A stretch of DNA of 64,000 nucleotides from Campylorhamphus procurvoides (taxonomy: Eukaryota; Chordata; Aves; Passeriformes; Dendrocolaptidae): assembly GCA_013396655.1 (NCBI GenBank), contig WBMV01005958.1:186001-250000 (forward strand), in the 5' to 3' direction. A program made the position numbers and the translations under genes. Shown piece by piece: positions 24,272-53,556 of this stretch (position 1 is its first letter; every line of letters begins with the position of its first letter). The notes below the pieces were generated by a model. The model saw nothing but the letters and a program-made list of their open reading frames with translations, searched no databases and was not told the DNA's origin.

Positions 24272-24379
24272 TCAGTGGTCCAGGATCCGCAGGTTGCCAG
24301 ACACGATTTTGTTCTCTAGTAGAGCTCCAGCTGGGATGTCAATCCTGTCCCCGTGGTTTGCAATGATGATAACTGTTCC
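24272..24379 (-). CDS. UGP2: UGP2 last coding exon (residues 474-508)
   Basis: Acceptor AAACCCAG, then [20 protein letters not shown] and the C-terminus [13 protein letters not shown] with TGA. This is part of the C-terminal left-handed beta-helix involved in oligomer assembly of animal UGP2 (octamer in the human enzyme). Confidence 0.97.
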
Positions 24380-30300: not shown

Positions 30301-33300
30301 AAAGGGAGTCTATAACAGTCTGATTTGTAATGGTACAAATAACCTGATTTGTTGCTACAACAAGCTCTTTCCTTGAGAGGTTCTATGGACTTTGTGACAC
30401 CAGTGACATCATCTCATTCAGATGAGAAGATACCTCTTGTCTGCTCTTCCACGTTCAGAGAACTGAGTCAATGGTAAAGATGGGTAAGGAAGAAGTAACA
30501 ACCCTCTTCTAGTGCTGCAGAAGGAGAGGGGGTTTCCTTGGGTTCCATCTCACTCACTGCTCCAGTAAGATGACCATCCTCTCCCCTTCAGTCAGGTCAC
30601 AACTTAAGAACCCAGGCCCTGCATGCAGAGCATACAACTTTCCTTCTCTGAGCAACTTAAACTCATAGATTTTTTTGATACTTTGCTCTGAGATTGTCAA
30701 AGGCAAATTTCTTGGCAAAAGGTTGGTTCTTTGACTATGTCTAAAGGGACTTTTATACCAACTACTAGTCTGATATATTAATTCATCTCTCCCAACTTCA
30801 TGATACAAAGTGGAAGAAAGTTCCTAGTTCTTATCCTGCTGTTTTCAGGATGTGCTCATCCAGCCGACAATAAAACTTACAGAGAGCCTTCTACCTTGCT
30901 GACAGCTATTTCCTACTGGTTTAAAAACAGAGCCTGTGCTACCTTTGGGGCTAGTGGTGGAGACAAAAACACAGGCTTGTAATGACAGTGTATCTCCCAT
31001 TAGACACTGCTTGTTCCCTAATCCAAAGCGCCTCAGTCAGAGAAATAACAGTAACAACGCCGTGGTAAGAATCATGCCAGAACTGTTAGAGCAGAATCAA
31101 TACAATTATCCTTTAGCCTGCCCTTCTAGAGATTTTCTTTTGAAGAAAAGCCTTGGTGTTTCAGTGCTGTGTTTACTCTAGCTGCAAGAAAATTATCTTA
31201 GTTCTGATAAGGGGCGTGCAAGATCCACAGCTGATTTCCAAATCCAAATACATACAGAGTAGTTTTGGGAACTGTGTTTGCTTTGGGCAATTCAGGCTGG
31301 GGTTTCAATGGAAATTCACATTGCACTGGAACAAGAGTCATATTTCTTACTGGGATGTGTGGGTGTAGAGAGGAGAGTTTGTGCAATTCCAGCATTCCAG
31401 CACACCACAGGCAGCAGATTAGAGCAGAACCCTCACATTAGGGAAATTCTGCCTTATGGGATCTGAAAAGCTTATAGGAGATATTTAAAGATAAGATGAC
31501 TCCACGTGGAGTTGTCGTGGCTCAGACAGAAAGCAGTAACACAAACATTGCCATTTCACAGAGGACATATGCAGGAACTTCATTGCAAGGTTCCAAGGAC
31601 CTCCCAGGAACAGAAGCGCACAAAAAGCAGAATCTTGATGTGCTTTGTTGACAACAGAGATTGTGTTCAGGTTGGGCAGACACCTTGACAAACAGCTGTT
31701 CTTCTCATTAACAAAGAGGTGATAAACACTGAGTTTAATGTCTTGGAGGTACATCAGGAAGCTTAATGAACAATTCACTACCAGCAGGACCTACGGAGAT
31801 TTACACTCAGATTTGCTGCTTCCCATCCACTCCAAGGTCAGTAACACTCCATATTACATTGTAAATGGATTAGAAACATTTCAGCTTGAGCTTTAGCTGG
31901 GTGGGACGTGAGTCACATCCATGATGTTCAGACACTGTCTGAACATCCAAAAGAGTTATCTCAACTTTTACGTCTCACTGTGTTCCTCCTGCATCACTCA
32001 CAAAGAGCAGAAAGCCTGACACTCAGTTCAGGGTTAGACTGTCTCAAAAATCCCTCACTTTTGCTGAAGTGCCAACTACCCTTTCATGCTTTCACTATCA
32101 TGCCTGATACCAGTTTATGCAGAAAGCTCAGAGGAAAAATCCTGAAGAAGTTAACAGTTCCACCCAGGCATCCATCAAGGACTCAGTTCACTGGATGTTG
32201 CATCAGTTACAACACAAAATTTATGACTCAGTCTCACTAAATGTTTCAGTTTCTTCTGGCACAGGCATTGGAAACGACAACTTGGCAGTGAAGCCCTGGA
32301 TCTTGAAGGGTCTTTAATTCAGAGAATAACAAATGTCAAAAACTCAAGTTCCAGCAGGAATGTTGCAGCATCAGGACTGCTGGATGCCAGTGCTATCAGG
32401 TAGCAGTTCCACTCATGTGTAGGCACTAATATGCAGAACTACCTCATCATCTACAAGCATACACACAAGTGTAAAAAGTGCTCCACAGTAATAAAAGTCC
32501 ATTCTTGCTCTAAGGGTTTGCAGCTAGTCAAGTAAGTGCTGATGGTGAATTCTTCAGGAAAAAACAGGGGCAGAAATGACACGGCTTACAGAAATAACAT
32601 GGCTGCAGTGTTACGCACTTGAGACGTGTCTCACAGCCATGGTTTGGGAGTGTTCTAAGATGACATATGCAGCTTCCTTTGTTTTGCAACCAATGCCACA
32701 AAAGAGATTTTTCGGAACAGTTTGCATGAGGCAGCATTGGAACTTTGACTAACAGTTCTCAGAATCGTACTCCTACTGCAAGGAGGCTTGCAAGAGTTTG
32801 TCAGAGACAGACAAAATGAGCATCAGGGCTGTCATCGTGGGTGGATCGGAAAGGAACACACCCCTATTAGTTAATATGTACTCACACTACCAGGAAATAT
32901 TTACTCAGTACCAAGGGACACCTCCAGGAACACCACCAAGTGAAGAGGTGTCTGCCCTTGTGAGACCCCACCTGCAGTGCTGCACCCAGGTCTGGAGTCC
33001 TCAGCACAGGAAATACGTGGACCTGTTACAGCAGGTGCAGAGCAGAGCCACAAAGATGATCATGAGATAGAACATCTCTCCTGTGAAGACAGGATGAGAG
33101 AGCTGAGATTGGTCAGCCTGGAGAAGGGAAGGCCTTGGGGAGACCTCATTGCAGCCCTCCAGTACCCAGAGGGGGCTTATAGAGGAAGAGTAACTTTTTA
33201 CCCAGGTTGATAGGGAGGGATAGGACAAGGGGGAATGGTTTCAAACTACAAGAGGAGAGATTTATATTAGATCTTAGAAAGAAATTCTTTACTCTGAGGG

Positions 33301-36300
33301 TGGTGAAACAGAAGAACAGGTCTCACAGAGAAGCTGTGGCTGCCACANTACGTGGACCTGTTACAGCAGGTGCAGAGCAGAGCCACAAAGATGATCATGA
33401 GATAGAACATCTCTCCTGTGAAGACAGGATGAGAGAGCTGAGATTGGTCAGCCTGGAGAAGGGAAGGCCTTGGGGAGACCTCATTGCAGCCCTCCAGTAC
33501 CCAGAGGGGGCTTATAGAGGAAGAGTAACTTTTTACCCAGGTTGATAGGGAGGGATAGGACAAGGGGGAATGGTTTCAAACTACAAGAGGAGAGATTTAT
33601 ATTAGATCTTAGAAAGAAATTCTTTACTCTGAGGGTGGTGAAACAGAAGAACAGGTCTCACAGAGAAGCTGTGGCTGCCACATCCCCAGATGTGTTCAAG
33701 GCCAGGTTGGTTGGGGCTTGGAGCAACCTGGTCTAGTGGAAGGTGTCCCTGCCCATTGCAAGGGGTTGGAACAAGATGATCTTTAAGGTTCCCTCCAAAC
33801 CAGTCTATGACTCTATGAACCTTTAAAACCCCTTTTCAGAGTTGAAGATTAGAAAGATGTTTTGGTTTTGAGTAAGGGTACAACATTCACTCTTTTACTT
33901 CATGATACAGTTCACTGAGATGACAACCTGAGCTGCAAACAGGAATCCAACCACTGGGGAAGAAACAAATGGCTCTAATAGACAAGTTCCTTTCACACTC
34001 ACATTGCTTCGGATGCTCCCTTTACATCCCAGATGAGGTTTTGCATTGCTGTTCTGAGGTTAACTTGATCATTGCAGTTCTCTCTGAGGCCTCCCAGCAG
34101 GACTTTGCTATTGCTTCCAATACAAACAAACAGATCGCTGTAATCTACATCGAGGGGATTAAGTTACACTTGCCATGTCCACATTCTTTACCTCCTCTCC
34201 CTGTTAACTGGCACTCTCAGTGTACTTTCTTCTCTGGAGACTGTAACAGTAATGGGTCCTAACTATGCGAGCTATCACTGTAAGCCTTTGGGCATATGAA
34301 AGCAAAGCATCTGGAAGGGAAAAACAAGTCAGAGGTTTACCAATATAGTGTGAAATGGGTTCAATCATCTGTTACCATCATCAGTATTAGTTGTTACACT
34401 GAAAACATGGAGGTCAGGGAGAAATCTCCCATTGCAGAGGAAAACAGAGGAATATTACAAAGCAAAAATTTCTGTTTCACTTTAGTGACAGGAGCCTTTA
34501 GTTGTCAGTACATGCTTCAGGAAAAAGCAGAAAGCTACATTCAAAGAACAAATACAACAGGTAACACAATAGATGACCTACAGAAGTCTTATTAGAAATT
34601 CTACTCCTGCATAGCACAGTCCCTTGGCATCACGAAAAGCCTGAAACACCTTTCCCATGTAAAAGACAAAGCCTATAAATCAAATAAACTACTCATGAAC
34701 TTTTTTAAGCTGCTAAATAAACAAAAAAGCAACAATTTCACACTTTGCACATTTTTAGGTGCCTCTGCTGACAGATACACATGTTTGTCTGTATGGATAT
34801 ATACACACATATGTACCTAAACAGATTATTTTTGCTCTACTAAGTACCAGTTGAAGATTATAATCCCCAGAATTCTCATCAGCCAAGCAATTCTCCAAAA
34901 CAATCACAGGCAAATACATTCCCACTGGGGAGAGTAAGCTGGCACTTTCTAGGGCATGGTCCTTTTAGTGTGAGATTCTCCAAGCACCCCAACACCTCAT
35001 AAGAAAAGGTCATCCCTACAGGCAACTATAAATCACTTGCAAAATTACCAACAAACAAGTCTTGTGTATACCAACCTTTCTGTTGTTCTAACAAGACCAG
35101 GAGGAGAACATGCTGTGAGGTTTTACAGCTAGGAAAAGAGAACTCAACTGGAACTGAACAGAAGCACTCAGATAAGACATGCATATATTCACAGATGGAT
35201 ACTTGTCCCAAAGAACTCAGCACTGCGACCCCTCAAAAATTTCCCCTTTATCTCTTCTAAAAGCTCATACTGTACTAGCTAGATTAATAATTCTGGTCTT
35301 CAAGAAATCAACTTTTATCTAACAATTCCACAAGTCATACTCCTCTGCAAAGAATAATCTGGGAGAATGTCACTTAAAAAGGATTTCACATAAGACACAT
35401 TTCGCTTTCCACAGGATGTTCCTGACATGACTGACATATGAAAAAGGAGAGGGTAGATACAAGCAGGGTTCAAGGAGGGTCAGGAGATGGAGCTTTTATG
35501 GTTAGCAAAAGAAGAGAAAAGAAAAAATATTNCAGAGCCACAAAGATGATCATGAGATAGAACATCTCTCCTGTGAAGACAGGATGAGAGAGCTGAGATT
35601 GGTCAGCCTGGAGAAGGGAAGGCCTTGGGGAGACCTCATTGCAGCCCTCCAGTACCCAGAGGGGGCTTATAGAGGAAGAGTAACTTTTTACCCAGGTTGA
35701 TAGGGAGGGATGGGACAAGGGGGAATGGTTTCAAACTACAAGAGGAGAGATTTATATTAGATCTTAGAAAGAAATTCTTTACTCTGAGGGTGGTGAAACA
35801 GAAGAACAGGTCTCACAGAGAAGCTGTGGCTGCCACATCCCCAGATGTGTTCAAGGCCAGGTTGGTTGGGGCTTGGAGCAACCTGGTCTAGTGGAAGGTG
35901 TCCCTGCCCATTGCAAGGGGTTGGAACAAGATGATCTTTAAGGTTCCCTCCAAACCAGTCTATGACTCTATGAACCTTTAAAACCCCTTTTCAGAGTTGA
36001 AGATTAGAAAGATGTTTTGGTTTTGAGTAAGGGTACAACATTCACTCTTTTACTTCATGATACAGTTCACTGAGATGACAACCTGAGCTGCAAACAGGAA
36101 TCCAACCACTGGGGAAGAAACAAATGGCTCTAATAGACAAGTTCCTTTCACACTCACATTGCTTCGGATGCTCCCTTTACATCCCAGATGAGGTTTTGCA
36201 TTGCTGTTCTGAGGTTAACTTGATCATTGCAGTTCTCTCTGAGGCCTCCCAGCAGGACTTTGCTATTGCTTCCAATACAAACAAACAGATCGCTGTAATC

Positions 36301-39300
36301 TACATCGAGGGGATTAAGTTACACTTGCCATGTCCACATTCTTTACCTCCTCTCCCTGTTAACTGGCACTCTCAGTGTACTTTCTTCTCTGGAGACTGTA
36401 ACAGTAATGGGTCCTAACTATGCGAGCTATCACTGTAAGCCTTTGGGCATATGAAAGCAAAGCATCTGGAAGGGAAAAACAAGTCAGAGGTTTACCAATA
36501 TAGTGTGAAATGGGTTCAATCATCTGTTACCATCATCAGTATTAGTTGTTACACTGAAAACATGGAGGTCAGGGAGAAATCTCCCATTGCAGAGGAAAAC
36601 AGAGGAATATTACAAAGCAAAAATTTCTGTTTCACTTTAGTGACAGGAGCCTTTAGTTGTCAGTACATGCTTCAGGAAAAAGCAGAAAGCTACATTCAAA
36701 GAACAAATACAACAGGTAACACAATAGATGACCTACAGAAGTCTTATTAGAAATTCTACTCCTGCATAGCACAGTCCCTTGGCATCACGAAAAGCCTGAA
36801 ACACCTTTCCCATGTAAAAGACAAAGCCTATAAATCAAATAAACTACTCATGAACTTTTTTAAGCTGCTAAATAAACAAAAAAGCAACAATTTCACACTT
36901 TGCACATTTTTAGGTGCCTCTGCTGACAGATACACATGTTTGTCTGTATGGATATATACACACATATGTACCTAAACAGATTATTTTTGCTCTACTAAGT
37001 ACCAGTTGAAGATTATAATCCCCAGAATTCTCATCAGCCAAGCAATTCTCCAAAACAATCACAGGCAAATACATTCCCACTGGGGAGAGTAAGCTGGCAC
37101 TTTCTAGGGCATGGTCCTTTTAGTGTGAGATTCTCCAAGCACCCCAACACCTCATAAGAAAAGGTCATCCCTACAGGCAACTATAAATCACTTGCAAAAT
37201 TACCAACAAACAAGTCTTGTGTATACCAACCTTTCTGTTGTTCTAACAAGACCAGGAGGAGAACATGCTGTGAGGTTTTACAGCTAGGAAAAGAGAACTC
37301 AACTGGAACTGAACAGAAGCACTCAGATAAGACATGCATATATTCACAGATGGATACTTGTCCCAAAGAACTCAGCACTGCGACCCCTCAAAAATTTCCC
37401 CTTTATCTCTTCTAAAAGCTCATACTGTACTAGCTAGATTAATAATTCTGGTCTTCAAGAAATCAACTTTTATCTAACAATTCCACAAGTCATACTCCTC
37501 TGCAAAGAATAATCTGGGAGAATGTCACTTAAAAAGGATTTCACATAAGACACATTTCGCTTTCCACAGGATGTTCCTGACATGACTGACATATGAAAAA
37601 GGAGAGGGTAGATACAAGCAGGGTTCAAGGAGGGTCAGGAGATGGAGCTTTTATGGTTAGCAAAAGAAGAGAAAAGAAAAAATATTCAAGAAATTTAATT
37701 CTGCTCTCAATTTTTGTGAGCGCTTAAACCCATCTCCAGCCAGATCAGAAAGTCCAAGTACCACCCTGAAGAAAGAGATATTTACTATGAAGTGAAGAAG
37801 GCATGGAAGGAGGTTTGTTTGCAGACATTTTACCCCAGCTTTCTTCTGAATGCATGCATTTCATCTGACCAGAAGTGACCCCAGTTTGCAGAATTCTTAT
37901 CATGTCAAAAGTTGCTGCATAGCACAGGGACACATTTGAGAATAAGCAGTACAGGCCATAAGGAAGAAGACAGATACTCTTTCTAATCCCGCCCTTCTCC
38001 ATTCAGCCTTCTGTGACCTTAAGTTAGACCTCTGTCTTAGTTCTTTTTTAACAGCTTGTCATGCCTGAGAATATCCCATCAGTCTATTTCAGTGCCTTGC
38101 CATAACCCTCCTGTTTGACATTTGCTCCCAGTGTCCTACTCCATCACTCTAAGTCCTTTAGAGAACTTGTAAGTTTTTCCACTGAAGGTGTGCAAGACTT
38201 GGAAAACAAACAATAGCTCTTCCTCTCCACAAAGCAGCCCATTCACTTGCATCAAATTCCTGTAATTTAATCCCAGTCTTTATCTTGACACAGGGAACAG
38301 TTTATTCCTTTCATTGTTGTAACTACCTTTTTACATATTTAAAAGACCTATTGCCCCCCAGAGTTTCAGCCCCCTTACACTGAAAGAAATACCTTTTTCT
38401 TCAGCCTTCCTTCTAAGCCATCTTATCTAGAACTCTAATTTCCCACCTTGGCCTCTTCATTGAGGGTGGACTTTTCTCCCCAAAGCAACACTTCATTCAG
38501 TGTTACAGTACAGAAAAGAGAGACATCACATGTTTTTGAAGTTAAAAGAAAACACTCAACCTTGGAAAAACCCTAGACTAGCTCTAAAACAGCATCATTC
38601 TTCCACGCTTTATAGAGCAGCACTGCATCTGTTCTGGAAGTAACTGGACAGCCTGCCTTTCAGTTGGAAACAGAGCCTCAATTGAATCACACAGAGAGCC
38701 TCAGAGAAACCACAAACCTGTGAGGACACAGAAGTCCTGCAATATGCCAAGATCACTACACTGGCAAAAGCGAGAATTTGTAGCACAACTACACCATTAG
38801 TTACACAGGAGTCAAAGGACAGCCTGGGGCCACAGATGAATCAATAAAATTAAGTTAGCTTTAATAGGAAGTATTTATTTCAGTACTAACAAGTGCTGAA
38901 AAAATATATAGTGCTTTTTCAGCAGCAGCTCAAATTACAGGTTATTAGTTACAACAACATGGGCGACACTGGAAAATTACACTCCAAACCCCCCCACAGT
39001 CAGCTCCTCATTTCAGATCCCTTTCTTTTACTGAGCTGCTGCAGGTTACAGAAGTTGCTAAATGAGTTCTATTACCCAGCCCACTCACCATATGTCCCTT
39101 TCAAATTACTTAGCATAATGGATCTCTGGAAACAGTCTCATCTGAGACGTGCAGCCTTCTTTTATGGGCAGGAGGGAAATAGGAACAACAAGGGTCCTGC
39201 CTACTTCCTCTCTAACACAAGTTCCAGTTTACTCCAGAGAAGGTACCAAGTGGTAAAGTGGCATCTGTCCTATTTTGCTCCCCTGCTCAAAGAACAGCTA

Positions 39301-42300
39301 ACAAAATAACACCAAAGAACTTGACGCATATGGTAAGCAGGACCTGATGTTCAGGAACACCTACAACATATGTCAACAAATAATTATTTCTCAGTTAGAA
39401 CCCAAAGTGTTGTCCTACATGATTTTACAGAACCATGGCAGAAAGATCCCCTCGATGGGTGAACACATCATTTGCCTTAAGCAGCAATTATCAGTTTTAT
39501 GTGCCTTACAGACTGTCACTTCATTGCAACTTACAGAATCTTCTGGAGGTCTCTGGATCTTCCCCCAGTCCACAGATGGTCCCTTTTCTTGTAGGAATCT
39601 ATGAAATAGCTTCTTAAATCCTTCCAGGTCTTTTTTGGTGTGCTACAAAAGAGAAAAGCATGACTTAATTATTTAATGCACACCTATTCAAACACAGAAG
39701 CATTTCTACAAATTGATGTACAATCTATTCAAAAGAGTAATTTCATCAGCACTTAAGTAGACATGCTAAAATTCAGGTTAAATTCTAGAAGGCACCAAAA
39801 GCTCACTTTCACTAAAACTCAAGGTACAAAACCAACGTGAATACCTACACAAGTCTTTTGTCAAAATTATAACCACTACAATTTGTCCCAATCTTTAAGA
39901 TAACAACTTTACCCTCCAATACTGTAATCCATTGAAGATTATATAGAACCTTTAATAACTAAAGACGATTAAACACTTAACTCAGTCACCCAGTTTATAA
40001 GGAACTGAAAGTCTCCTACTGACATTCTATCCAGGCTACTCTTCCACACAGGACCAGAGCACACCCTAAAAATAAGGATATGGTAGTCTGTGATTTATCT
40101 CCTTGTCTAAGATCTGCCTCAATGTCCTGCATCCAATTTCTCATGCTGAGCTGCATCCACGTCACGCTCCTTACCTCTATCTCATTGGAGTGCGCAGTCG
40201 CAAGGATCTTATCAAGTTCCACTTTCATTGAATACTCCAGCTCTTGTCGAATGACTTCCTGAAACTGTGAAGAGCCAGCTTGAGACATTGCTTTGCTGAA
40301 ATCTTGAATAAAAATAAAAAACACGGGTTAAAAGAAAAAAAAATAGTTTATTTAGACTACAAATAGCCATAGATTTTCTTTTAAAAAACCTGATAGACTT
40401 GTGTAATCCAGTCTCATTTTATCACTGTGCTAGCACTCCAGGAATCTAAAGTTTTTGTTCTTAGTTACTTGTGGAACAGACCGTAAATTGGGCCTAAAGA
40501 ATAACGGCCCACCTTTCAAAACTCAAAAGAACCCCAAAAGACCAACGAGCCATCTCAAGAAGTGTCCAAAAATCCGCAGCAGCGTCCTTTTCTGCTGGAG
40601 AATTCACATCCTGCTGACAGTAGCAAGGAATTCACATCCTTTAGCAAGTAAAAGTGTGAAAAAGAATTTTCCTAGTGAAAAGCTATGTAGAACATTTTGA
40701 TTGAGGGTATCCTGTTCACCTAAGCAAATAAAAACATGTGCTTTCATTATTTCTACAGCGCATTCTCACACGATCTTCTGTTTGTCCCAGTAAATATTCC
40801 CTCACTTTATCGTGTGAGTATTTTCACACTACACCATGCATTGCAGTTACTAAGCAACCTAGAAAATTGGGCTGTCTATCACTTCAGCATTTGTTTTACT
40901 TTTGAAAGTGATAAGCTCCATGAACGTGAAAAGGAGTAAATACACAAATGTTCTATAAAGTCCACCCTGCAGAAAGAACCGGCAGAGAACATGACTCTAT
41001 TTTTCAACAGAAAGCGTTTGAAGCCAGTGTGTTCTCAAAAGACATTCTGAGTATGTTCTCTAAAGACCTCAGTTAATTTAATTTCTGCCAAATCCCTTGA
41101 GTAATGACTTCCCAGTAACACAGAGAGTGATGTATTGCCAAATATAGCTGGATTTTAGAAACACCCTGAATACTAGTGCAAAAAGGGACAGAAGGGAACT
41201 TTGCAAGTGAACAGAGCGATGCTGACAGAAAATGTTGTTAGAAGAGGAACCTGCATTTAAAGTCTACTTACTGAGAACACATATTAAAAGGCTCTTCTAT
41301 TGAGAATGCCCGAGAACAGCAGAGACGGCTCATTTTAATGCAATTTTTTATTTTATTTTCTTTTTTAAAGCAAAGTATTCCACAGCCTCAGCCTCAGTGA
41401 CAGTATGTAATCCTTGCTTTGAAGCCCACAGAAGCCATTTTCCTGACTGCACTGTTTTGCAGGTAGGGGAGGGAGGGGAAAAAAAAAAAAAAGAGACAGA
41501 CAAGTGCTGCAGTGCACATACTGTGTGTGGTGCAACACAGGAAAACACCAGCTCAAGATGAACAGTGCAGTGAACAATAGGTTCTTTTTTTAATCAAATG
41601 CTTCATTTAGTAGTAAAAGCAGGTAAGAGTTGAAAGCCTGTTAAGCGTATCTTTCCGGGTCAAATACATAAAAACACGGACAGCTCTTCATCAGGAAGCA
41701 CTTTTGCCCACAGAAAAAGAAGGAGGTCTCTACCAGCTTAATACTTTCACACCAAACTGCTACAAGCACTGCCTTTTCATTGACACATTTTGGGTTGATG
41801 CAAACCGAAACAACTGCTAGGGGATCTTTGCACGTTTGTAATCCCCCCTGCAACATGTTACAATACACCACTAGTGTAACAGCAACACAGTGGCCATTTC
41901 TCACACTTCATCAGCCTGTAAAGCACCCGGACCTCCCAATGGGATGCAGTGCACCTCAGAAGGAACTCTGCACACCCCAAGTGTTCAGCAGGGACCGCCA
42001 GTCGTGCTGTTAAACACACTGGGGCTGCGGGAGGCAGAGCCAGCCAGCAACTTCCCAGGGCTGCCAAGGATGTAGGAAAAGCTTATTCGCTTTATATTAG
42101 CCAAAAGACTCACATTTAAAACCATTTAGAGACCAAAGAGCGCCACAAACAAACCAAAATAAAAAGGTGTCCTAAAAGGAAATGCATAACGTCCTCATTG
42201 AGGAGTCTTTTTTTTTTTCTGTAATATTATAAATTCTCCATGAACTGAATGAGCAAATGCCAAACACATTTAATCACCAACATCCTCGCAGAGAAGCGAA

Positions 42301-45300
42301 GCAAACCTGTTGCTTTTTCCAATAGCAAGCATCAGGCACACAGAGAGGCAGTGGATGGGATGGCTCATACCTAAACCCAGCCTACCAAAGCTGCCAGTGT
42401 TGGGGCCTGCACCTTTTACTGGCATATTGAGGTATATCAGAGGATATTTAGGCTTTACACTGACCATTCAACAACTACTGCAACCCCTCCGTCTCATCCA
42501 GATTCAATGTGTCAGGGCACGGTTGCTTGGGGAGAGCATTTGTTAGTGCTGCAAGTCCAGTAATTATTATTTTGGGGGTAGAGAGAGAAAGGACGTGGCT
42601 GGAGTCCATAAAACATGTGCTTGCCTGGTGCAGGAAAAGTATCTATTCTGCATACAGGAATTTGAATACTGTAACTAAGCAGCCAAGAGAAACAGCAACT
42701 AAAAGTGTTTCAGCTGTTAACATGCCATTGCGAGGCAGAGGCTTTGAGCATTTATCTTAAGAGACTTCCACTAGGAGGTGGGCTGGACAGGGGGATTGAC
42801 AGGACTCCCTAAAGCCTCCCCAAAACAAGGTCACACAGCAGCAGCACTGGTACACATGCTCTAGCCAAACTCACTACTAGCTGTTCCACTGCCTCTCAGA
42901 GTTTTTAGGAAGAAGCTGATATTTATTCATCCCAGTGAAAGACAACTGCAGTCCTTTAACATGAGCTGCAGCTGAATTTAAAAGCCTGGGTGAAGATTGA
43001 TTTCCCTTTTCACCCTAGCAGCAACAAGGAAGTGGAAAGGCCAGTGCAACTACATATCTGAAAGCAGTTCTTTCCTACAGGCAACTAAAATTTCCTAAGG
43101 CCATAACAAAAAGTAGCTGTTGTGCCTCTAAAAATCAGATGGGAGGCAGGGGTGCTGGATAGTTTCAGGAAGAGATTAGCAGAGATATATGCAGCCATAA
43201 AATCTCAAATTATGGTGAAAAAGAAATGCCTCTTCCAAACTATTTCACAACCAATGCCTCAGATTTCAGCTTAAGCCCATTTTTAAGGGAGCAATATTCT
43301 TGAACACTCATCAGAAGTATGAAGAGGGTGGGACGGGGTAGTGGAAGACTCTTGGGGGACCTGCCCACACAGGAAATGAGCACAGACCGGAAGAGCATGA
43401 CTAAATAGTTGAGACTTCAGAAAATACTGGGCTTTGCAAAAATGACCACCCTGGATATCTTATTTTAATGCCTTCAGTAGAAAGTGCTTCCTCCAAAGTA
43501 GCAGAGACAGGACAGCTCTTAATCAAGTTCATGATGGTGTTTGGTGCGTGGAGAATTTCACTCCAACCCTCCTGCCCCCACTGTTATTTCTAGCACGCTT
43601 TTGTGCTCTGCTCTGACTGCTAACCTGGCCCCTGCCCTCACAGCACAAGCTACAGCACATGGCAGAGTACCGGCAGGTTTATGATGCATAATTTTATAAC
43701 TGACAGATAAAACCCCAAAACATGATATATCAGATCAAGCTAATAAAAAGGAGGACTTTGTACACTCTCAGAAACAAAATAAAGGACAGACGTCCTCAGG
43801 AAAACTGCACAAGAACAGAAGAGCAGTTCTCAAGTTAGGGGCTTGCATGTATTTCCTTTCTGCCCTCCCTCCTCTTATCCTACATTAAAAGCACAGAACA
43901 CATTAAGCCTGGATTAATGAACAAAATTAATTAAACAGAAGAGAACTTTGGTAGTCATTATACAAGGATCCAGCACAGGAGGGAGTTGTGGGACAAGTCA
44001 AGCAAGAAGTTCTCTCCCTTATGAAAAAATGAGGAATCTCTTGGGCTGAGGATTATGAATTGGGATTACTTTTGCAATCCAAGTAAGTACAAAGAAAGAC
44101 CTAGAGCAGAAAGTTATTTAGGTGTCCTTGGAGCCAGACTACTGCACAAAAATCAAGAAAAGGGTGGCCAGTGAGTTACAACACACAGCTAAACTTTAAA
44201 TGTTCTATCCTTGAACTCTGTGCTGAGGGTAGAGAGTAAATGCTTCAACTTCCAACAACTCCGCTTAAAGTTCAAGGCAATCTTTATCTCTGGCAAGGAT
44301 AAAACCCTCTTTAAATATCCACACTATAATGCGCAATGGTAATAAATACTACTTTGCTTTTCAGACCCGAACGCAGCCTCTCAGCCTTTACATACATTTT
44401 TGTTTTCCGACTACTAGAGGCAAAATTTGCCAGCACGTGTTGGACTGAAGCATACGTGAAGTGAAAGTTATATGCTCTGACTCTCCTCGACAGATGAGCA
44501 CTTAAGCCTGAGCTAACTCAGAAATTTGCAGCCCTGGAAAGCTGTTCTTGCCAGCTGCACACACCAAGAGTTTAGGTGTTACGGTCAGACACAGCTGGAT
44601 TTCTCAGTCTAGCAGCTGATCCTCATGCTAAAAATATCACTTGACATTGGCAACATGTTTTAGTACTGTTGGCCTGACAAATGAGTATCTAAATAGTGGA
44701 TAATTTTTTAAAGCTTTTAGGATTGTCAAATTTCTCATAATATTTTAAGAAAAACCAATTACGATCTTTACACAGGTTTCTACAGTTGTCAGTTTCATAA
44801 ATAACATCACTTGTCTGTAAGATGGCTACCTTCAGCACTACCCTGAGATAAGCAAATTCCCCCCAGAAAGAACAATTAGGAATGTATTTTCATAATGTGT
44901 TTCACAAGGGCTTATCCTGATAACTTTCAGGGTGGCCGGTTGAGCAATGTGCTGAAACACTTCCCTCCTTCGGCTCTCTGCCTTTAGTGCCCAGGTACCA
45001 CAACAGGGCATTTGCAGACAGGTGATGCATTTACAGTCCCGGACATCCACTGTGTGAGGGACAGGGATTTCCCAAAGCCTTCCATGGCCCTGCAACATCC
45101 AAGTTCGTACAGCAAAAGACCTCCTCGTGTTCCTTCTGCAGGCAGCACTACATTTGTTGACAGGCCTGCACAGATTTATATTAAGGAACCCCTACAGCCA
45201 CAGATTTCATTACAAAAAGCACCACCGGGAATATCGGAAAGGAGGGAAAGAAAACTGCAACGGCAATGCACCAAAGTAATTTTTCTTCCCGAAATGACCT

Positions 45301-45738
45301 CTTGTGGGCTTGGTTCCTCGTTTCACAGCAAATCCAAAACTCAGACCACGTACACACACAAGCGCTCACAACATGCGGACAGGGAAGGGAGAGCGCCGGA
45401 GCTCTGCCGGGAGCAGAAAACGCCAACAAAAAACAAAACAAAACAAAAAAAAAAAGGAAAAAAAAAAGGAAAAAAATGGGGAAAAAAAGGGTAGGGGTGG
45501 GGGGAGAAAAAAGGGAAGACATTCGACCTCGACATTCTTCCTCCCGCAACTTCAGCGGGCGGCTGAGCCGAGGTCGGTGCTGCGGGATCGCTGCGGGACG
45601 GCGGGGGCGCCGGGCCGGGTGCGGGGCAGCCCCGCACACACCGCCCGCACCTCGGCGGGGACAGGGCAGCAGGAGCGGGGCGGCCGGGGGGCAAAGCACG
45701 CCACGGCCCGCCGGCTTACCTTTCACGAGAGCCGACAT
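24272..45738 (-). CDS. UGP2: UGP2, UTP-glucose-1-phosphate uridylyltransferase (complete)
   Basis: UGP2 catalyses UTP + glucose-1-phosphate to UDP-glucose + PPi in the cytosol, supplying glycogen synthesis, UDP-glucuronate and glycoconjugates. Exons in transcript order: 45738-45720, 40302-40175, 39642-39535, 30161-29976, 28534-28401, 27805-27508, 26465-26268, 26084-25842, 25402-25298, 24379-24272. They total 1527 nt, giving 508 residues plus TGA, the length of the human long isoform. Visible signatures: the nucleotide loop [16 protein letters not shown] at residues 113-128 with Lys127, Gly222-His223, Asn251-Ile-Asp253, and Lys396 in FLPVKTTSD, all at known substrate-binding positions. The start ATG (45736-45738) sits in a CpG-rich 5' region. 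No frameshift was seen. Two assembly duplications lie in the third coding intron and do not touch exons. Confidence 0.98.
25298..25402 (-). CDS. UGP2: UGP2 exon 9 (residues 439-473)
   Basis: Thirty-five codons, phase 0 at both ends, donor AAG/gtgagt. It encodes [20 protein letters not shown] then [15 protein letters not shown], the start of the C-terminal beta-helix. Confidence 0.97.
25842..26084 (-). CDS. UGP2: UGP2 exon 8 (residues 358-438)
   Basis: Eighty-one codons, acceptor TCTTCCAG, donor AAG/gtaaac. It encodes [20 protein letters not shown], then [15 protein letters not shown] with the active-site lysine at residue 396, then [16 protein letters not shown]. Confidence 0.97.
26268..26465 (-). 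CDS. UGP2: UGP2 exon 7 (residues 292-357)
   Basis: Sixty-six codons, acceptor CCCTTGCAG, donor AAG/gtaatc. It encodes [20 protein letters not shown], then [13 protein letters not shown], ending EIIVNPK. Human UGP2 has Ala where Pro356 appears here, so this Pro is a lineage difference to confirm. Only 183 bp of intron separates it from exon 8. Confidence 0.97.
27508..27805 (-). CDS. UGP2: UGP2 exon 6 (residues 192-291)
   Basis: A 298-bp exon, acceptor GTCTTGCAG, donor AAG/gtaaag. It carries [15 protein letters not shown] (Gly222, His223) and [11 protein letters not shown] (Asn251, Asp253), the core UTP- and sugar-binding segments. It ends NKTRADVK. Confidence 0.97.
28401..28534 (-). CDS. UGP2: UGP2 exon 5 (residues 148-192)
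   Basis: A 134-bp exon, acceptor CATCTCAG, donor GCAG/gtatca. It encodes [20 protein letters not shown] through KIYTFNQS, with the Arg codon split across the junction to exon 6. It is part of the Rossmann-like catalytic domain. Confidence 0.97.
28535..29975 (-). other. UGP2 intron, nothing recognised
   Basis: GT-AG intron of about 1.4 kb. A near-pure A tract of about 18 bases near 29107-29124 (long GA/A-rich run) is the only low-complexity element. It is not obviously attached to a retroelement. Confidence 0.5.
29976..30161 (-). CDS. UGP2: UGP2 exon 4 (residues 86-147), nucleotide loop
   Basis: Sixty-two codons, acceptor TTTTCTCCAG, donor GAG/gtaatg. It encodes [20 protein letters not shown], then [17 protein letters not shown]. 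This Gly-rich loop, with Lys127, contacts the UTP phosphates and pyrophosphate leaving group. The exon ends LTVQQIE. Confidence 0.98.
30162..32938 (-). other. UGP2 large intron, 3' part, nothing recognised
   Basis: No repeat family, exon or RNA gene was recognised here. The rest of this intron (to 39534) contains a CR1, two assembly duplications and an older CR1/L3-like relic. Confidence 0.5.
32939..33818 (+). mobile_element. CR1 LINE 3' fragment (+), internally duplicated by assembly
   Basis: Young-looking CR1 3' region: GTGAGACCCCACCTGCAGTG, TACGTGGACCTGTTACAGCA, GAGCCACAAAGATGATCATGA, CAGCCTGGAGAAGGGAAGGC, AGCTGTGGCTGCCACATCCC, CAAGGCCAGGTTGGTTGGGG and the tail TCTATGACTCTATGA. The block 33014-33347 is repeated at 33349-33682 with an N between, so the real element is probably about 335 bp shorter. 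It is antisense to UGP2. Confidence 0.93.
33014..33682 (+). repeat. 334-bp tandem duplication with single-N junction
   Basis: 33014-33347 and 33349-33682 appear identical and are separated by one N at 33348. Both lie inside one CR1. A lone N at an exact repeat junction is the mark of overlapping contig ends that were abutted but not merged. Confidence 0.9.
33378..37686 (+). repeat. 2154-bp tandem duplication with single-N junction
   Basis: 33378-35531 and 35533-37686 match base for base at an offset of 2155 over everything I compared. One difference was found, A at 33557 versus G at 35712, with N at 35532. Each copy carries a CR1 tail and the same downstream intron sequence, and no UGP2 exon is included. 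Most likely a false duplication from unmerged haplotypes or contig ends. Confidence 0.92.
35533..35973 (+). mobile_element. Second copy of CR1 tail (within duplication)
   Basis: Same CR1 3' end as at 33378-33818, from CAGAGCCACAAAGATGATCA to the TCTATGACTCTATGA tail. It begins abruptly at the N. It exists because of the 2.15-kb duplication and is not an independent insertion. Confidence 0.9.
38300..38520 (-). mobile_element. Old CR1/L3-like LINE relic (-)
   Basis: Weak but ordered similarity to the reverse complement of old CR1/L3 3' regions: ACATATTTAAAAGACCTATTG, TTTCTTCAGCCTTCCTTC, TCTAGAACTCTAATTT and an AACACTTCATTCAGTGTTACAGTA-like end. It is too diverged to place confidently and could be another old LINE. 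Confidence 0.4.
39535..39642 (-). CDS. UGP2: UGP2 exon 3 (residues 50-85)
   Basis: Thirty-six codons, acceptor CTTTTGTAG, donor TCT/gtaagt, phase 0 at both ends. It encodes [20 protein letters not shown] then [16 protein letters not shown], the helical N-terminal region before the catalytic core. Confidence 0.97.
40175..40302 (-). CDS. UGP2: UGP2 exon 2 (residues 7-49), internal start Met12
   Basis: A 128-bp exon, acceptor TTTATTCAAG, donor GAG/gtaagg. It joins the single base left by exon 1 to give [20 protein letters not shown] onward to HSNEIE. Met12 is the start used by the short isoform in mammals and is kept here, so a short 497-residue product is possible if an alternative 5' exon exists. 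Confidence 0.96.
40303..45719 (-). other. UGP2 first coding intron, mostly featureless
   Basis: A GT-AG intron of about 5.4 kb. Apart from A-rich runs near 41478-41492 and the purine-rich tract at 45424-45515, no repeat family, alternative exon or RNA gene was recognised. An alternative first exon for the short isoform could be here but has no visible mark. Confidence 0.5.
45424..45515 (+). repeat. Purine tract with G-quadruplex motif
   Basis: An A-rich then A/G-only tract. It ends with GGGG (45478-45481), GGG (45489-45491), GGGG (45494-45497) and GGGGGG (45499-45504) separated by loops of 7, 2 and 1, a canonical G4 pattern on the + strand (template strand for UGP2), about 235 bases inside intron 1. 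Confidence 0.75.
45720..45738 (-). CDS. UGP2: UGP2 first coding exon (residues 1-6)
   Basis: ATG at 45738-45736 begins MSALVK plus one base, with donor G/gtaagc at 45719. This exon was chosen because its phase joins exactly to 40302 and gives [14 protein letters not shown], parallel to the human long isoform N-terminus. The split codon gives Asp7. Confidence 0.9.
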
Positions 45739-45980
45739 TTTCGCCCTTTAATGGGTAAAGCCGCGGGACAAGCACGGGGGGCAGCCCCGTCTGGGGGGCG
45801 CCGAGGCGGGCTGCGGCGGGGACCCCGGCCTCGCTGGGAGCTCCTGCCCTCCCTCCCTCGGTCCGTCCGGCCCTCGGTGCCGCTGCCCTGCGCCCCGCGG
45901 TCCCTCCCGGCCCGGCGGGCGGGCGGCGAGCCCCGAGCGATTTAAATTTCATCAATGGGAGAGGCGGACCTGCCGCGCCC

Positions 45981-46231
45981 NNNNNNNNNNNNNNNNNNNN
46001 NNNNNNNNNNNNNNNNNNNNNNNNNNNNNNNNNNNNNNNNNNNNNNNNNNNNNNNNNNNNNNNNNNNNNNNNNNNNNNNNNNNNNNNNNNNNNNNNNNNN
46101 NNNNNNNNNNNNNNNNNNNNNNNNNNNNNNNNNNNNNNNNNNNNNNNNNNNNNNNNNNNNNNNNNNNNNNNNNNNNNNNNNNNNNNNNNNNNNNNNNNNN
46201 NNNNNNNNNNNNNNNNNNNNNNNNNNNNNNN
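45981..46231. other. Assembly gap (251 N)
   Basis: Run of Ns in the UGP2 promoter, entered from GC-rich unique sequence and left inside a 52-bp tandem repeat. The gap was probably caused by GC content plus the repeat, and its true length is unknown. Confidence 0.99.
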
Positions 46232-46376
46232 GGACACCCGGTGTGTGAGGGGGGTGTTCGGTGTGTGAAGGGGACGATGGGGAGGACACCCGGTGTGTGA
46301 GGGGGGTGTTCGGTGTGTGAAGGGGACGATGGGGAGGACACCCGGTGTGTGAGGGGAGTGTTCGGTGTTGATGTTG
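46232..46376 (+). repeat. 52-bp minisatellite next to UGP2 promoter
   Basis: Units begin at 46232, 46284 and 46336 with GGACACCCGGTGTGTGAGGG and have an exact 52-bp spacing. The third copy is partial and has one G-to-A change (GAGGGGAGTG). Within a unit, GGTGTGTGA occurs twice, so the unit itself looks like an older half-unit duplication. The array continues into the N gap. Confidence 0.95.
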
Positions 46377-46497
46377 AACCCGCAGCGAAGGAGGGTCAGG
46401 GGTGACCCGGTGGCTCCGCACGGCCATCCCCCCACACACCCCACCCCACACAGACGGCGGCCTCTCCCCACGGGAGGTGCAGGTTGGGCATCCAGAG

Positions 46498-46600
46498 TGA
46501 TGTCTCCACGGAAAAGGTGGTTTAACAGTGGGATGGGCTGCCCAGGGAGCGGGGGGAGCCGCTGTGCCCATAGGTCTTTAAGGAAAGAATGGGTTTTCCT
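46498..46600 (+). mobile_element. CR1-like fragment (+)
   Basis: ACAGTGGGATGGGCTGCCCAGG, then GTCTTTAAGGAAAGAATGG, in the order of a CR1 3' region. Short and diverged. Confidence 0.55.
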
Positions 46601-48289
46601 GGGCTTTTCACTTCATGCTGCCTCGTTGACATCGGGGAAGATGCTCCTCTGTCTGCCCCAGAACCACCAGAGGGATAAAAGGTCCTGGGTTTGCTCCAGG
46701 ACTTCAGCGAAGTCCTGGTCCTTTCCTCCAGACATGGGTGGACGCTTGATGTTACCTCCAGTGCAAGAGCAGCCCTACTCCCGCCCTTGCACGGTTAATT
46801 AAAATGCTCAAGTTTAACACTGTTGCTCCATTCCTGCAGCTCGGCTCTGCTGTGATCCCAAATCCAACACCTGCCGGCCAAGAGCACAACCGAGATCTTC
46901 TCCAGATAGGACCAGAGCTGCTTTTGTACAGCTGTCCTGGGTAATTACAGGATAATTACAGGCATAACTTATAGGGTAACGAAGAGGGATAAGTTTTTAT
47001 CTGCCAGCAATAAAACTAATTCCAGTGACCTGTCATACTGCGGTGGAACCAGGAGAAAACCCTCCCTCCTTCACGGAGTTTTATGGAAGTAAGGGAATAA
47101 TCAAGACTGAGCACTGATTTGACTGAGTTTCAGTCAAATCACTGCGTTGCTTAGGATAGAGGTAACCAAAACCAGCCAGTTTTGGTAAAACTCTTGAGTA
47201 CCCAGCATTGTGGCAGCATCTTTTTAGGAAAATAAAGGAAATAAAGCCGTTGGGCTGATAAGGTCAGTCCACCCACAAGCAGCTCCTCCTGATTCCTTTG
47301 GCAGACATCAGCTGGAGGATGGATAGAGGAGAGATTGTCCCTGGCCTTATTAAAAAAACAAACCACTCCATTGCCCAAGAGCTAGATTGAAATGAGGGAG
47401 AGGTTTGCAGCCTCCTGATGCTGCTACTCCTGAAACACCAGCTAGGGATACTCAGCCCATCCATGTGCTCCAACACTTTGGATTAAGTAGACATAGAAAT
47501 GACAAAAACAGATCCAAAGGGTCCCAATGAAAAATAAGCTTTTACTCCCCACTCCCCACGCCTGATGTCACCGTCTCACCCAGGGAGTTCACCATCTTAC
47601 AGGAACATGGTGCTTAACAACTTAATCAAGGCACCAAACTCAAACCGCCGCCTGGTTTTATGGCTCAAAAATAAACTGCCTCATAAATATGCCTCATAAA
47701 TAAAATAAATAAAATTAGAGTGGTTTCCTTTGGTTTCATCACCCAAGAAGCTTACAGCAGTGCAAAATGCTGCCAGAAGAACTAGTCCTGTCCTCCCCTT
47801 ACTCTAGCCGTTCTCCCCACCCCTTTTTTGGCTCAGCACTGGAGGTTTTTGGCTGGGACAGTCATCTTTTGGATGGGCTCATTTCTGGCTTGCATGTGGA
47901 TGGTGGCAAGGGGAGGTGAAAAAGTCCTTCTGGATACCCAACATCATCCTTTCAACACACTCTCATATATTTCTTTCTTAGCATTCTTTATTAAGTTTCT
48001 CACTGAGGACATTTGTTTTCCCTCTCTCCTCTGTCCATTTTTCATCTGCTTCGTTAATTGCCAATTAACTGACTTGTTTGAGTTGAGTAGGGTCAGCAGA
48101 TAATAGAAATCTGGGTATTTGTGGGGGAAAAGACACAATGCAAATGCCAAAGAAATATGGCCAGGAGGCACTTGGAAAGCCAAGATGTGAACATTTTAGT
48201 TTTCTGACTAAGGAATAATAGAAAAAAACTTTTTTGGTGTTGTCCAGATAATAGAAATAGTAGCACAGGTGCTTTATGGCCATTTCTCC
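46601..48289. other. UGP2 upstream region, no gene seen
   Basis: About 1.7 kb with no recognisable coding exon or RNA gene. It contains the inverted repeat at 47111-47145 and scattered TAAAATAAATAA runs near 47690-47715. Confidence 0.5.
47111..47145. repeat. Strong 15-bp hairpin
   Basis: GCACTGATTTGACTG (47111-47125) pairs with CAGTCAAATCACTGC (47131-47145) across a 5-nt loop, with a single C/C mismatch: 14 of 15 pairs. It is longer than chance alone readily gives in this context. It could be a foldback element remnant. Function unknown. Confidence 0.8.
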
Positions 48290-48800: not shown

Positions 48801-50975
48801 TCCCATTTTTGGCAGAAAAAGACAGTGAGTGCCTGGGAAACAATAAAAATCAACCTCTCAGTCGCCTTGGGTGGGGCACACAGGGCACCTGAGCTCCACC
48901 AGCTCCTGTTTGTCCAGCTCCTGCAATAGCTGCCTGACACATTCCCGGTTGCTCCGGAGCTTTGTTTTCGTCAACCAACACCCATTTGCGCTATTTGCCA
49001 AACAAACGGGGGCTCATCAGCGAGTGCCATCGGTCCCACTCCCGTTTTCCCTTTCAGCTGCCTCTGCGGGCTGGGGAGCAGCCGAGTTCAAACAATCTGG
49101 GCTTGGGCATCAGCCTGGGAGGAGATAGAGCATTAATGAATTTAATAACACCAAACAGATCAAAGCTTTCAAATTCCATCATAAAATAATATCCCTGAGG
49201 CACCAATCTGTGATACTACAGGACTCCAACATGAGGTGAAGAAACCTGTGGCTGCAGTCTTCTGAAATTTTTCCCAAGTGTTTAAAAAGGTATGAAAATC
49301 CGCATTTTATTTTATTTATTTTTATTTTATTCCATTCCGGCTTTGAACCAGGAGGAGCTGAACAACAGCTGTGGGAGCAGGGAACGGGGCAGGGAGAACC
49401 CTGTTTTTTAAAATAAAATGAAATAAAGTATTATTTTTAATTCAATGCCTTTCTCTCTCTCTTTTCCATGTTTAATGCATGGATACACAGCATACTTTTG
49501 GGGCAACAGCTCAAAGCCACTGAGTCAGAAATAAGCCTGGTTGCACCTAAAAATCTCTTGTTAACAACCTCAGTGGGGACTGTCTGGATGTTTCGGGTGC
49601 TCCAGAGCTGCAGGATTCTTGAATGGTAAGATAAGATAAGATGATAAGATTTTGTAAGGTAGCCAACACGGAACACAACAGGGACGGCAAGGGCAGGGTC
49701 TCCTGGTACGAGGGGCTTCAGTGCTGGTGGGAATGGCTGGATCTGTTCAGGCATCACAAGGGAATGGGGGTTGTTTTGTCCACAAATAGGCTGGACAAAA
49801 GCTCTGAAATAACTCAGCATCTATTTTTAACTCCCTTCTTGCAGGAATTTCGCAGCGCCTGGCGCCTGGTGGCACACTGGCATGCACACGGCATGCATGG
49901 CACTCCCAGTGCGAGTCTGGGGGCAGGATAATGTCATTTGGAATAACGAAGCCCCCTCTGGTCTGGAGATGCTGAAGGTGTTGGTCAGTAAAGGGTTTCT
50001 ATACGTCCTGTCCTGTCAGCTGCTACTCTGCATGCTGTAAGTCTTCCTACTGATTTTTCATAGGAAACAAAACCCAGGACAAGCCCTTACGGCAAACGAC
50101 AGATGAGTCTTGTCCTTCCCACCACCCGGTTGTCACCCTTTCACATTTGCCCCTGGGCCTGTTCCCACTGCTATAATTAACGGCAAATCAGGTGTCAGCT
50201 TGCTCTGTTGGACATGGCCGTAGAAATTCTTGGCACGGCGCTCTTCCTTTCGAGGCTGGAAGCCAAGCGCTGGAGACACGGCAGAAAAACAGCTCATTAT
50301 GCCTGCAGTGGGGTGAGAGCCTTCCGCTTCTCCCCTGTGCGCTCAGGGCTGGATCCAGGACCGAGTTCAGACAAAGTGACCACAGTTGGACATCTGTGCT
50401 CACCTTGCAGAGTGGGAGAGTGTCACAGTACTATGCCAGGCTCATCTGGCTCCCACTGTCTGCACCCATGGTCTGGCAGGTCCCCTGCAGCCAAGAGGAT
50501 GGAGGTGGACCTTGGAATGCTGGCAATGGGGGGCCTGACGTGGGTCTGGGAGTCTGGAAAGGATGGAGCTGGGTCACTGGGTGATGAGCCTCCCTTGCTC
50601 CCCCACCGAGGCTGACCAGCCATGCTAACATCAAAACTTCCTAGCCTGGAGGATTTAGGGACTAGCAGAGCTGGTGACTTCTCCTGTGGGTCTGGTGAAA
50701 CATCTCAGGAGAGGTTTGGTGACTGACTGTCAGCTGGAGGTGAGGGGAGAGAGATGGTTACCAGGTCACTCCACTTGGCCAGGCAGAGCATGAAGAGGTG
50801 TTTGACCAGCCAGTAGTTAGGCCTTAAATATTGGACACACAGAAAGAAAGGACATGCACTGGGGCATGGTGAACCTGAAAATGAAAAGAAACAATCACGG
50901 AGTTTAAGAACAAGACTAAAGGAGTTATTATGATTTCTCTGGTTTCTCCACCAGTAGATCACCAGTTTTTCCTAA
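48801..50975. other. Intergenic, no gene seen
   Basis: No exon of a known gene was recognised. A small (AGATA)-type run at 49629-49648 contains three WGATAR motifs. The overlapping open frames at 50192-50615 on both strands have no recognisable content. Confidence 0.5.
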
Positions 50976-50984
50976 TCTGCAGAA

Positions 50985-51260
50985 AAACAGAGGCCAGCAA
51001 GGACCACTGGAGGTCCCTCCTCCAACTCCTCAGGGCAAAGGTTTTCATCTCCCAAACGGAGATCCCACAGCCTCTCTAGGCTCCACTGTTGGAACACCCT
51101 CACGGAAAACATATTTTTACCTTTTATCCAACTGGCACTTCTCATCTTCCACCTTGTGCTCATTTCCTGCCCTTGTCCTTCCCCTGCACACCTCCAAGAG
51201 GAGCCTGGCTCCAGCTCCACCTCTGCTACTGCATTTGCCTTTGCTGGGCTTTGTGAGGGT
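50985..51260 (-). mobile_element. CR1-like LINE fragment (-), shared by the duplicon
   Basis: Reverse of the element at 2533-2848: CCAAGAGGAGCCTGGCTCC, CTTGTCCTTCCCCTGCACAC and GGAGATCCCACAGCCTCTCT. It is present at the equivalent place in both duplicon copies, so it was inserted before the duplication. Confidence 0.6.
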
Positions 51261-51699
51261 CCTGAGGGACCATTTCTAGGGATGAAGTTGTCTGGTCTCC
51301 CCTCTGCATAACTCCTGTTCTCAGTCATGTGGAAGGAACTGAAACTGACATGTCTTAATACAAAATCCCAGATTATGACAACAGGGAGTGCCTTCAGGCA
51401 GTTAAGAGACACATGCTTAAGTACAGTAGGTTATGCTTCATGCAACGAGGCACACAGAATTTTAGTATTTACTTTAAAGATAAGTTTAATTCAAGGTAAC
51501 ATTAGAATCCAAATGAGAAGGGAAATACATAATATCCTCATGGAGTTAAGCAGTAGCAGAGGCTTAAGCTGAAAGAGAAGGTTAATCCTTAGTTGTAGGG
51601 TAATTTAACCACAAATTAGAACAGTGAATTTATCTATGCTAAAAATGTCCATCTTCTATCCCCACCCATCACAAAAAAGTAATTTGGCTGTATACTTAC

Positions 51700-51755
51700 T
51701 TAACAACTACCTCTATATCTATTTCTTGCATCTGCAATTCTGTATTAAAAATGCG
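51700..51755 (-). pseudogene. Copy of the 56-bp VPS54 exon
   Basis: Same length as the parent exon (2023-2078), with AG acceptor (51757-51756) and gtaagt donor (51699 downward) preserved. Frame is open: RIFNTELQMQEIDIEVVV plus two bases. Fourteen of 56 bases differ and 8 of 18 full codons change amino acid (only 3 silent), which suggests neutral drift rather than constraint. Confidence 0.88.
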
Positions 51756-51828
51756 CTATCAAATTTAAAGTGGAAAAAAACAGAACAAAAATAAAATCTG
51801 AGCTTTCTTCTCACTGCTGAGTTTCTTA

Positions 51829-51845
51829 ACACACACACACACACA
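51829..51845. repeat. (AC)n microsatellite
   Basis: A run of about 8 AC units near the outer edge of the VPS54 duplicon. It is not present in the parent copy, where TTATTATATATTTTA stands at the matching place. Confidence 0.8.
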
Positions 51846-51880
51846 TTAATCCCTCAGTTAAATAAAGAAAAGAAATACAC

Positions 51881-53556
51881 AAGGAAGACCCACTTGCATC
51901 ATTTAATGCTGTGGTTGTCCAGCAGCCCTGCCCTCCAGGGCATACCAGGGACTGTGCCTGGGCTTCTGCAGCAGGCCCAGCTTTGCACAACTCGCTTCCT
52001 GCCAATGTCCCCTGGAGCGAGGTGACCTTTTTTTTCCAATTCAGTGCATTTTTGATTTTTTTTTTCTTGCACAGTTACTCAACCAAGTGGTTTCTGAGAA
52101 AAATGAAGCCCATCCTCACAAGCCTGTGTGCAGCAGCACAGTGGAATCTGTCCCAGAGAAGGAATGGTGTTTTTAGCCAACTCCTAGCCCTGCAATGCTG
52201 CAAAACCAAGCAGAAGACCAAACACACTGTCCAAGTGACCCTTTTTTGCCCCCTGAAATGCATAAAATTAATCCATTTCCCTTTTATTTCTTGCAATGGC
52301 TGTGCCCCTTACTGGTAGACCACCAGCCTCCTTCCCAGGCATCTGCAGGGTTATATACACCACTACTGGAGTAAGGAGCAAAATGCCACCTTTTCTCAAG
52401 CACGTAAAACTTCTCAAGGCCACCAGATCTTTCCTGGGCCCCTGTGGTTTGACTGGCAGAAGTGTATCCTTGGATGGCAGTGCTGCCAAGCACCCTGGGG
52501 ATGGAGCAGCCCCAAGGGAGAGCGGTGGACTCCAGGTTTTCACCTGTGCCATGTCCTCAGTGCTGCCTTTGAGGGGAGCCAGCAGAAAAAAAACTGGACC
52601 CACTGCTTTGTTTTGTGCTAGCAGGCTGCAATTTGGGGTGACAGGATGGGGAAGATCCTACAGAAAGGCACGACTGAAGCTGCTGCACCCCAAAACTTCA
52701 TTGGCAACGTGAGGCTTCCCAAGAGCCTCTCCACAGCTGCTTCTCATAGACATGACACGTGGTGTAAATACCGCCTGCGTGAGGTCACACTGCAGTAACT
52801 TCACACAGGAGGAATGAGGTGTCCTCGTGTGTTTTTGGCAGGCTCTTGCTGGACCAAATTCAGAATGGCCTCAGGCCTGGGGCCATGGTTCAGTGAGGTT
52901 ATCCTGCCCCTGGGGAAATCTGCAAGGAACCTGTGGGACATTTTGACCCCCTGATGTCCTTCAGGTACTTATATTTAAGGAGATTTGGGAGGAAGGTAAG
53001 AAACCCCAGCAACTAACACATCTCAAGTTATAGAGTAGTTATCATTGACTTGCTGCCTTCGTTTTGTTTTACTTTTAGACCTGCTCATTTTGGGCACACT
53101 CTCTGAAAATATAGTCTATAATAGGAAGGAAAAGATCATGTATTTATTGCTCCAAAGGAGCATGTTTCTCATCTCTTTCATGTCGCTTTCTAGCCAAGTC
53201 ATCCACTGCCAGGGCAAGCTCCCTGGAGCCCTTTGGAAATGCTCTCGAGGATTTTTGTGGAAGGACAGTGAGTTCCCACATACCTGCCATGCTTTTTTAC
53301 TCCTTCTTCAGCGGAAATGGGTGCGTTTTCATCCTTTTAGTTCTTGTCTGCTCCACACTGGACTTCCCAGCTCCATCTCTGGTGAAACGATCCTTCTTCA
53401 CAGATTCTCCTGCTTAGTAAATCCTTTTATGTAAGACCATGTTTGCTTCCCTTCCATAGTAAGGGAGAGATGAAAGAATTCAGCTGGAACCCCTGCTAAA
53501 GGAGACAAGCCAAAACATCAGAAAACAATTTATTTTTAGCAGCCACACTATACATT
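51881..53556. other. Intergenic, no gene seen
   Basis: No recognisable exon, RNA gene or repeat family. The VPS54 similarity does not continue here, so the neighbouring VPS54 exon at 45-152 was not co-duplicated. Confidence 0.5.

Follow-up and report, generated by a model that had tools for sequence, protein, structure and literature searches.

Does the DNA beyond UGP2 in this bird genome hold a true copy of part of the VPS54 gene and, if so, by what route did the copy arrive there? A sequence-only reading had placed an inverted, diverged copy of a VPS54 intron-exon-intron segment at 50980-51880 of the window, which is the whole 64-kb stretch of DNA that was analysed (C1615:186001-250000). 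The analysis answers the first question plainly: a piece of VPS54 was copied long ago, flipped and placed past UGP2, and it has since decayed into a real, fairly ordinary genomic fossil. The second question has a preferred answer and two competitors, both of which involve a CR1 element at one edge of the copy.

The duplicated pair and its gene setting

The pair consists of the following segments.

1879..2852, + strand: source, VPS54 intron-exon-intron; solid alignment at 1952-2718, weaker similarity at 1879-1951 and 2719-2852
50980..51906, - strand: inverted decayed copy; solid alignment at 51050-51829

A BLASTN comparison of 1500-3300 with 50400-52500 yields one plus/minus alignment with 620/806 identities (77%, 598 bits, E 3e-174), where 1952-2718 of the window, in VPS54, pairs with the reverse complement of 51829-51050 over 806 columns, and the coordinates first proposed for the copy are accurate. 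In a comparison of the window with itself, the pair is the top match, excluding trivial matches and rows that apparently stem from contig overlaps. The similarity runs in the same order across both introns, the 56-bp exon and the CR1-like element, as had been read from the letters. In particular, identity is 73% in the 5′ intron (1952-2022), 75% in the exon (2023-2078), 82% in the 3′ intron (2079-2447), 95% in the block 2448-2594 and 74% in the CR1 body (2595-2718); a similarity confined to CR1 is rejected, since the introns and the exon align too.

Weaker similarity extends leftwards to about 1879/51906 by local alignment, and on the right the CR1 profile described below continues to 2871 (source) and 50967 (copy). 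The 5′ edge of homology thus falls within unique VPS54 intron, and the 3′ edge is the CR1 3′ end in source and copy alike. Past the 5′ edge there is no convincing likeness: simple shuffles scored as high in 9 of 200 cases, and dinucleotide shuffles in 340 of 500. A gap-rich alignment past the 3′ edge was not counted as homology: although 1 of 200 simple shuffles scored as high, 19 of 500 dinucleotide shuffles did, as did 124 of 300 unrelated window pairs.

Further, a whole-genome search of the 1.02-Gb assembly with 1952-2450 found two places among the matches listed, the source and the copy, and a search with 50400-52500 found the same two plus two matches confined to the CR1 part, again among the matches listed. 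The search scores the best candidates only and skips very common words, making its repeat counts lower bounds. A dispersed repeat is rejected, because the non-CR1 part matches only source and copy among the matches listed. An exact-pattern search for bird DNA gave 0 hits in viral_contigs and 0 in genome_contigs.

The genes around the pair were located as follows.

2023 to ~22167, + strand: VPS54 exon matches, by protein similarity
24275..40306, - strand: UGP2 coding exons, between both copies, by protein similarity, with the UDPGP domain on two exon pieces
45251..46631, no strand: CpG-rich stretch around an assembly gap at 45981-46231 (251 bases)
C1615:321847-373983, + strand: WDPCP Frtz-domain exons

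In Pfam, both UGP2 pieces match UDPGP, and of the three pieces from VPS54 one matches the Vps54 family and two match none. The claim that the copy lies on the opposite strand with UGP2 in between is borne out. Its position on the far side of UGP2 also stands, and the distance, given earlier as about 49 kb, comes to about 48 kb in this assembly, measured from 2718 to 51050. Both orientation and spacing depend on how the scaffold was joined over the Ns at 33348, 35532 and 45981-46231. The true spacing is perhaps 2-3 kb less, given contig overlaps at 33-38 kb. Around the single N at 33348, 33014-33347 equals 33349-33682 (100%), and around the single N at 35532, 33378-35536 equals 35533-37691 (99.86%); these repeats at 33014-37691, in a UGP2 intron, look like unmerged contig overlaps and not a true tandem duplication. 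The CpG-rich stretch is probably a head-to-head promoter of UGP2 (-) and WDPCP (+). The first WDPCP Frtz-domain exon begins about 72 kb past the end of the window, which puts the copy between the probable common promoter of UGP2 and WDPCP and the detected WDPCP exons, possibly in a first intron of WDPCP if the human arrangement applies.

The decayed exon and the near-identical tract

The exon and its counterpart in the copy are:

2023..2078, + strand: VPS54 56-bp exon, CVVNTVSQIEEIDTEVVVK, with acceptor CAG and donor GTAAGT
51700..51755, - strand: dead exon copy, RIFNTELQMQEIDIEVVVK, with flanking AG and GT retained and no stop

The last codon of the VPS54 exon is completed by the next base, and the next exon match (LADQMRMMNF...) begins near 3565. 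In the copy, 14 of the 56 bases are changed and 8 of 19 residues are replaced. Across 1952-2718 minus 2448-2594, source and copy retain 78.4% identity over 597 aligned bases (K2P 0.26). The avian neutral rate is near 2e-9 per site per year, and from these two values the age of the copy may be guessed to be of the order of 65 million years. The copy appears to have drifted as if neutral and shows no sign of function, and presumably has none.

One part of the pair departs from this level of decay.

2459..2596, + strand: near-identical tract, 5 mismatches in 138 aligned bases

The 5/138 mismatches in the tract compare with the 78.4% identity outside 2448-2594, and the tract score of 13.76 exceeds all of 5000 column permutations of 1952-2718, the maximum of which (13.01) is close. 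At about 2596, inside CR1, the similarity drops sharply to ~66-74% identity, depending on the alignment. The whole tract recurs at no further locus of the 28 listed for 2425-2880: the remaining CR1s align just with its right end, and one locus matches 36 bases upstream, 2500-2535, at 94%. This 36-bp match suggests that CR1-like sequence in the source may start by ~2500. The tract looks like CR1 coding sequence for the most part, joined to the CR1 3′ part; the junction may be an internal CR1 deletion common to both copies, a reading drawn from the general structure of CR1 and the one 36-base match.

The simplest explanation is that the tract was probably re-homogenised later by gene conversion between the inverted copies. 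The same disparity between tract and surroundings would also be left by purifying selection at both places, acting on an exapted CR1 piece. Neither an unusually stable RNA fold in the tract (z -0.3 in the source, +1.1 in the copy and -0.9 on the other strand of the source) nor an Rfam family at gathering score within the window was found, which counts lightly against selection, and we regard it as the less likely cause by some way.

The CR1 element at the 3′ edge

To describe the edge, a CR1 profile of 311 positions was built from 32 relatives, with source and copy left out. It identifies:

2560..2871, + strand: CR1 3′ portion in the source, sense to VPS54, profile 2-297 of 311
50967..51205, - strand: CR1 3′ portion of the copy, which lacks the middle of the profile

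The copy's element is made up of two rows, 51205-51058 (profile 2-152) and 51035-50967 (222-290, where the 3′ end is reached). In the 64-kb window, 8 distinct CR1 elements, source and copy included, reach at least profile position 285, where rows at 33-36 kb count as one element (contig overlaps), the copy's two rows count as one, and 2 of the 8 ends are weak (E 0.003 and 0.006). The chance of an edge falling within 15 bp of a CR1 3′ end is ~0.4%, or ~0.8% for either edge, the latter a likely underestimate, as other CR1 subfamilies may be missed. By eye, the terminal 8-bp microsatellite is present as about two degenerate units in the source and at most one in the copy, whose 3′ tail has decayed; neither a target-site duplication at the copy's edges nor a poly(A) tail at its edge is apparent by eye. 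One of the nearest relatives of the VPS54 CR1, L005 (C1615:674777-674977), lies ~0.49 Mb away on the same scaffold.

From the presence of introns, the sequence-only reading had concluded that the copy is a genomic duplication and not a retrocopy. Introns are indeed there and a DNA-level origin is preferred, but introns alone are no proof, because the homology ends at a CR1 3′ end, the CR1 is sense to VPS54, and unspliced RNA ending at such a 3′ end is a possible CR1 template. CR1 reverse transcriptase recognises CR1 3′ ends and not poly(A) tails. In a CR1-mediated 5′ transduction, an unspliced VPS54 transcript whose 3′ end coincided with that of the sense CR1 in the intron would have been reverse-transcribed at the new site by CR1 reverse transcriptase, a process consistent with the shared 3′ boundary, with the orientation of the CR1, and with a 5′ edge in unique intron, as 5′ truncation would leave. 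PMC5729268 describes tails derived from CR1 that carry a hairpin, to which CR1 reverse transcriptase putatively binds, and the 8-bp repeat AUUCURUG; CR1 is proposed to mobilise passerine SINE RNAs with such tails. PMC3136929 counts 78 retrocopies in chicken and relates their low number to CR1 as the predominant LINE in that genome. Yet random insertion into a genome of 1.02 Gb would very rarely land less than 50 kb from the source, an argument from odds in a single case; there is no visible target-site duplication, the copy's 3′ tail is too decayed for the microsatellite to be read, and only one such copy is found among the genome matches listed. An origin by 5′ transduction is accordingly improbable, as is the view that the copy is an intron-retaining retrocopy made by CR1 reverse transcriptase from unspliced pre-mRNA. 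If it were true, birds could harbour hidden intron-containing retrocopies that end at CR1 ends and escape screens based on intron loss.

The sharp drop in similarity at ~2596 also fits ectopic recombination or gene conversion between inverted CR1s, where the copy's CR1 3′ part would be an older resident CR1. A break at the resident element would invade the VPS54 CR1, copy leftwards through intron and exon, and rejoin, accounting for the CR1-end boundary and the proximity together. This route is viable only if the CR1 3′ part of the copy was inserted separately, a point on which the relationships of the source CR1 (V) and the copy CR1 (C) to other CR1 loci (L005, L033 and L035) bear; L006 was omitted from trees and counts, as it is one locus with L033. 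Past the tract, in the CR1 body, two small trees pair V with C at a FastTree support of 0.933 (25 relatives) and an ultrafast bootstrap of 90 (32 relatives), V is the nearest row to C (33 rows), and the two share 7 rare states, the top value among 351 pairs, tied with one other pair, all of which argues for common descent and against a resident CR1. On the other side, the V-C divergence in the CR1 body is 34% (118 columns), not below that of V-L035 (31%) or V-L005 (32%); in three scoring schemes L033 outscores V as a match to C; and the V-C grouping has a support of 0 in a longer alignment of 259 columns, the tail of which is doubtful. An apparent best genome-wide match of V to the copy's CR1 3′ part was rejected, the query having included ~17 tract bases. 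When the tract was removed, the genome search scored L033 and the copy itself (2 candidates), and V was absent among the matches listed. As far as these sequences go, common descent of the last 120-250 bp of source and copy is not firm, and recombination between the CR1s is unlikely, though a better candidate than 5′ transduction.

Origin of the copy and comparison with known systems

Overall, the copy is probably the product of a one-off, old, local inverted duplication of a VPS54 piece at the DNA level. Such a local event is preferred because the copies are only ~48 kb apart, a proximity expected for local copying and, by arithmetic, of ~1-in-10,000 probability for random insertion into 1.02 Gb. 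Further support comes from the collinear 77% alignment through introns and exon, the two places listed genome-wide, and flanks with no convincing likeness. Against plain local copying, the CR1 edge has to be a matter of chance (~0.8%), whereas the CR1 routes explain it without coincidence. Each of the three routes fits part of the evidence; the local DNA-level event is favoured, possibly with help from CR1.

In the favoured mechanism, ~0.95 kb of VPS54 (intron, 56-bp exon, and intron with the sense CR1) would have been copied in inverted orientation to a site ~4-5 kb beyond the CpG-rich, probable promoter region of UGP2, in the interval from UGP2 to the WDPCP exons. Repair of a break or stalled fork with nearby sequence as template would be the likely route, where CR1-CR1 homology at one edge perhaps aided the copying. 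The copy would then have drifted as if neutral, and the 138-bp tract would later have been gene-converted.

On its own, the VPS54 copy changes little. It is a clean single-copy fossil that could serve as a rare genomic marker if it is common to other birds, and its boundary at a CR1 end makes it possible to test concretely if unspliced host RNA is moved by CR1. With its near-identical tract, the inverted pair that brackets UGP2 is also a modest case in which to study gene conversion acting over a distance on inverted copies. Judging from titles and the openings of abstracts, none of the papers listed on these genes, on CR1 and retrocopies or on interlocus gene conversion reports this VPS54 duplication.

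Three known systems invite comparison. Processed retrocopies likewise leave a dead exon copy at a new place; the VPS54 copy differs in keeping parts of both flanking introns and in having no poly(A) tail by eye. LINE trans-mobilisation or 5′ transduction, for which the CR1-tailed SINEs TguSINE1 and PittSINE (PMC5729268) give an avian example of CR1 moving other RNA, similarly yield non-CR1 sequence upstream of a CR1 3′ boundary, whereas the VPS54 copy is single, lies ~48 kb from its source, and has no visible target-site duplication or clear tail. Small intrachromosomal inverted duplications, a kind of low-copy duplicated DNA with fragments of genes in it, resemble it in being unique, collinear, intron-containing, short-range and inverted, with a decayed exon copy; from these, the VPS54 copy is set apart by its edge at a CR1 3′ end and by one tract that is far more alike than the rest.
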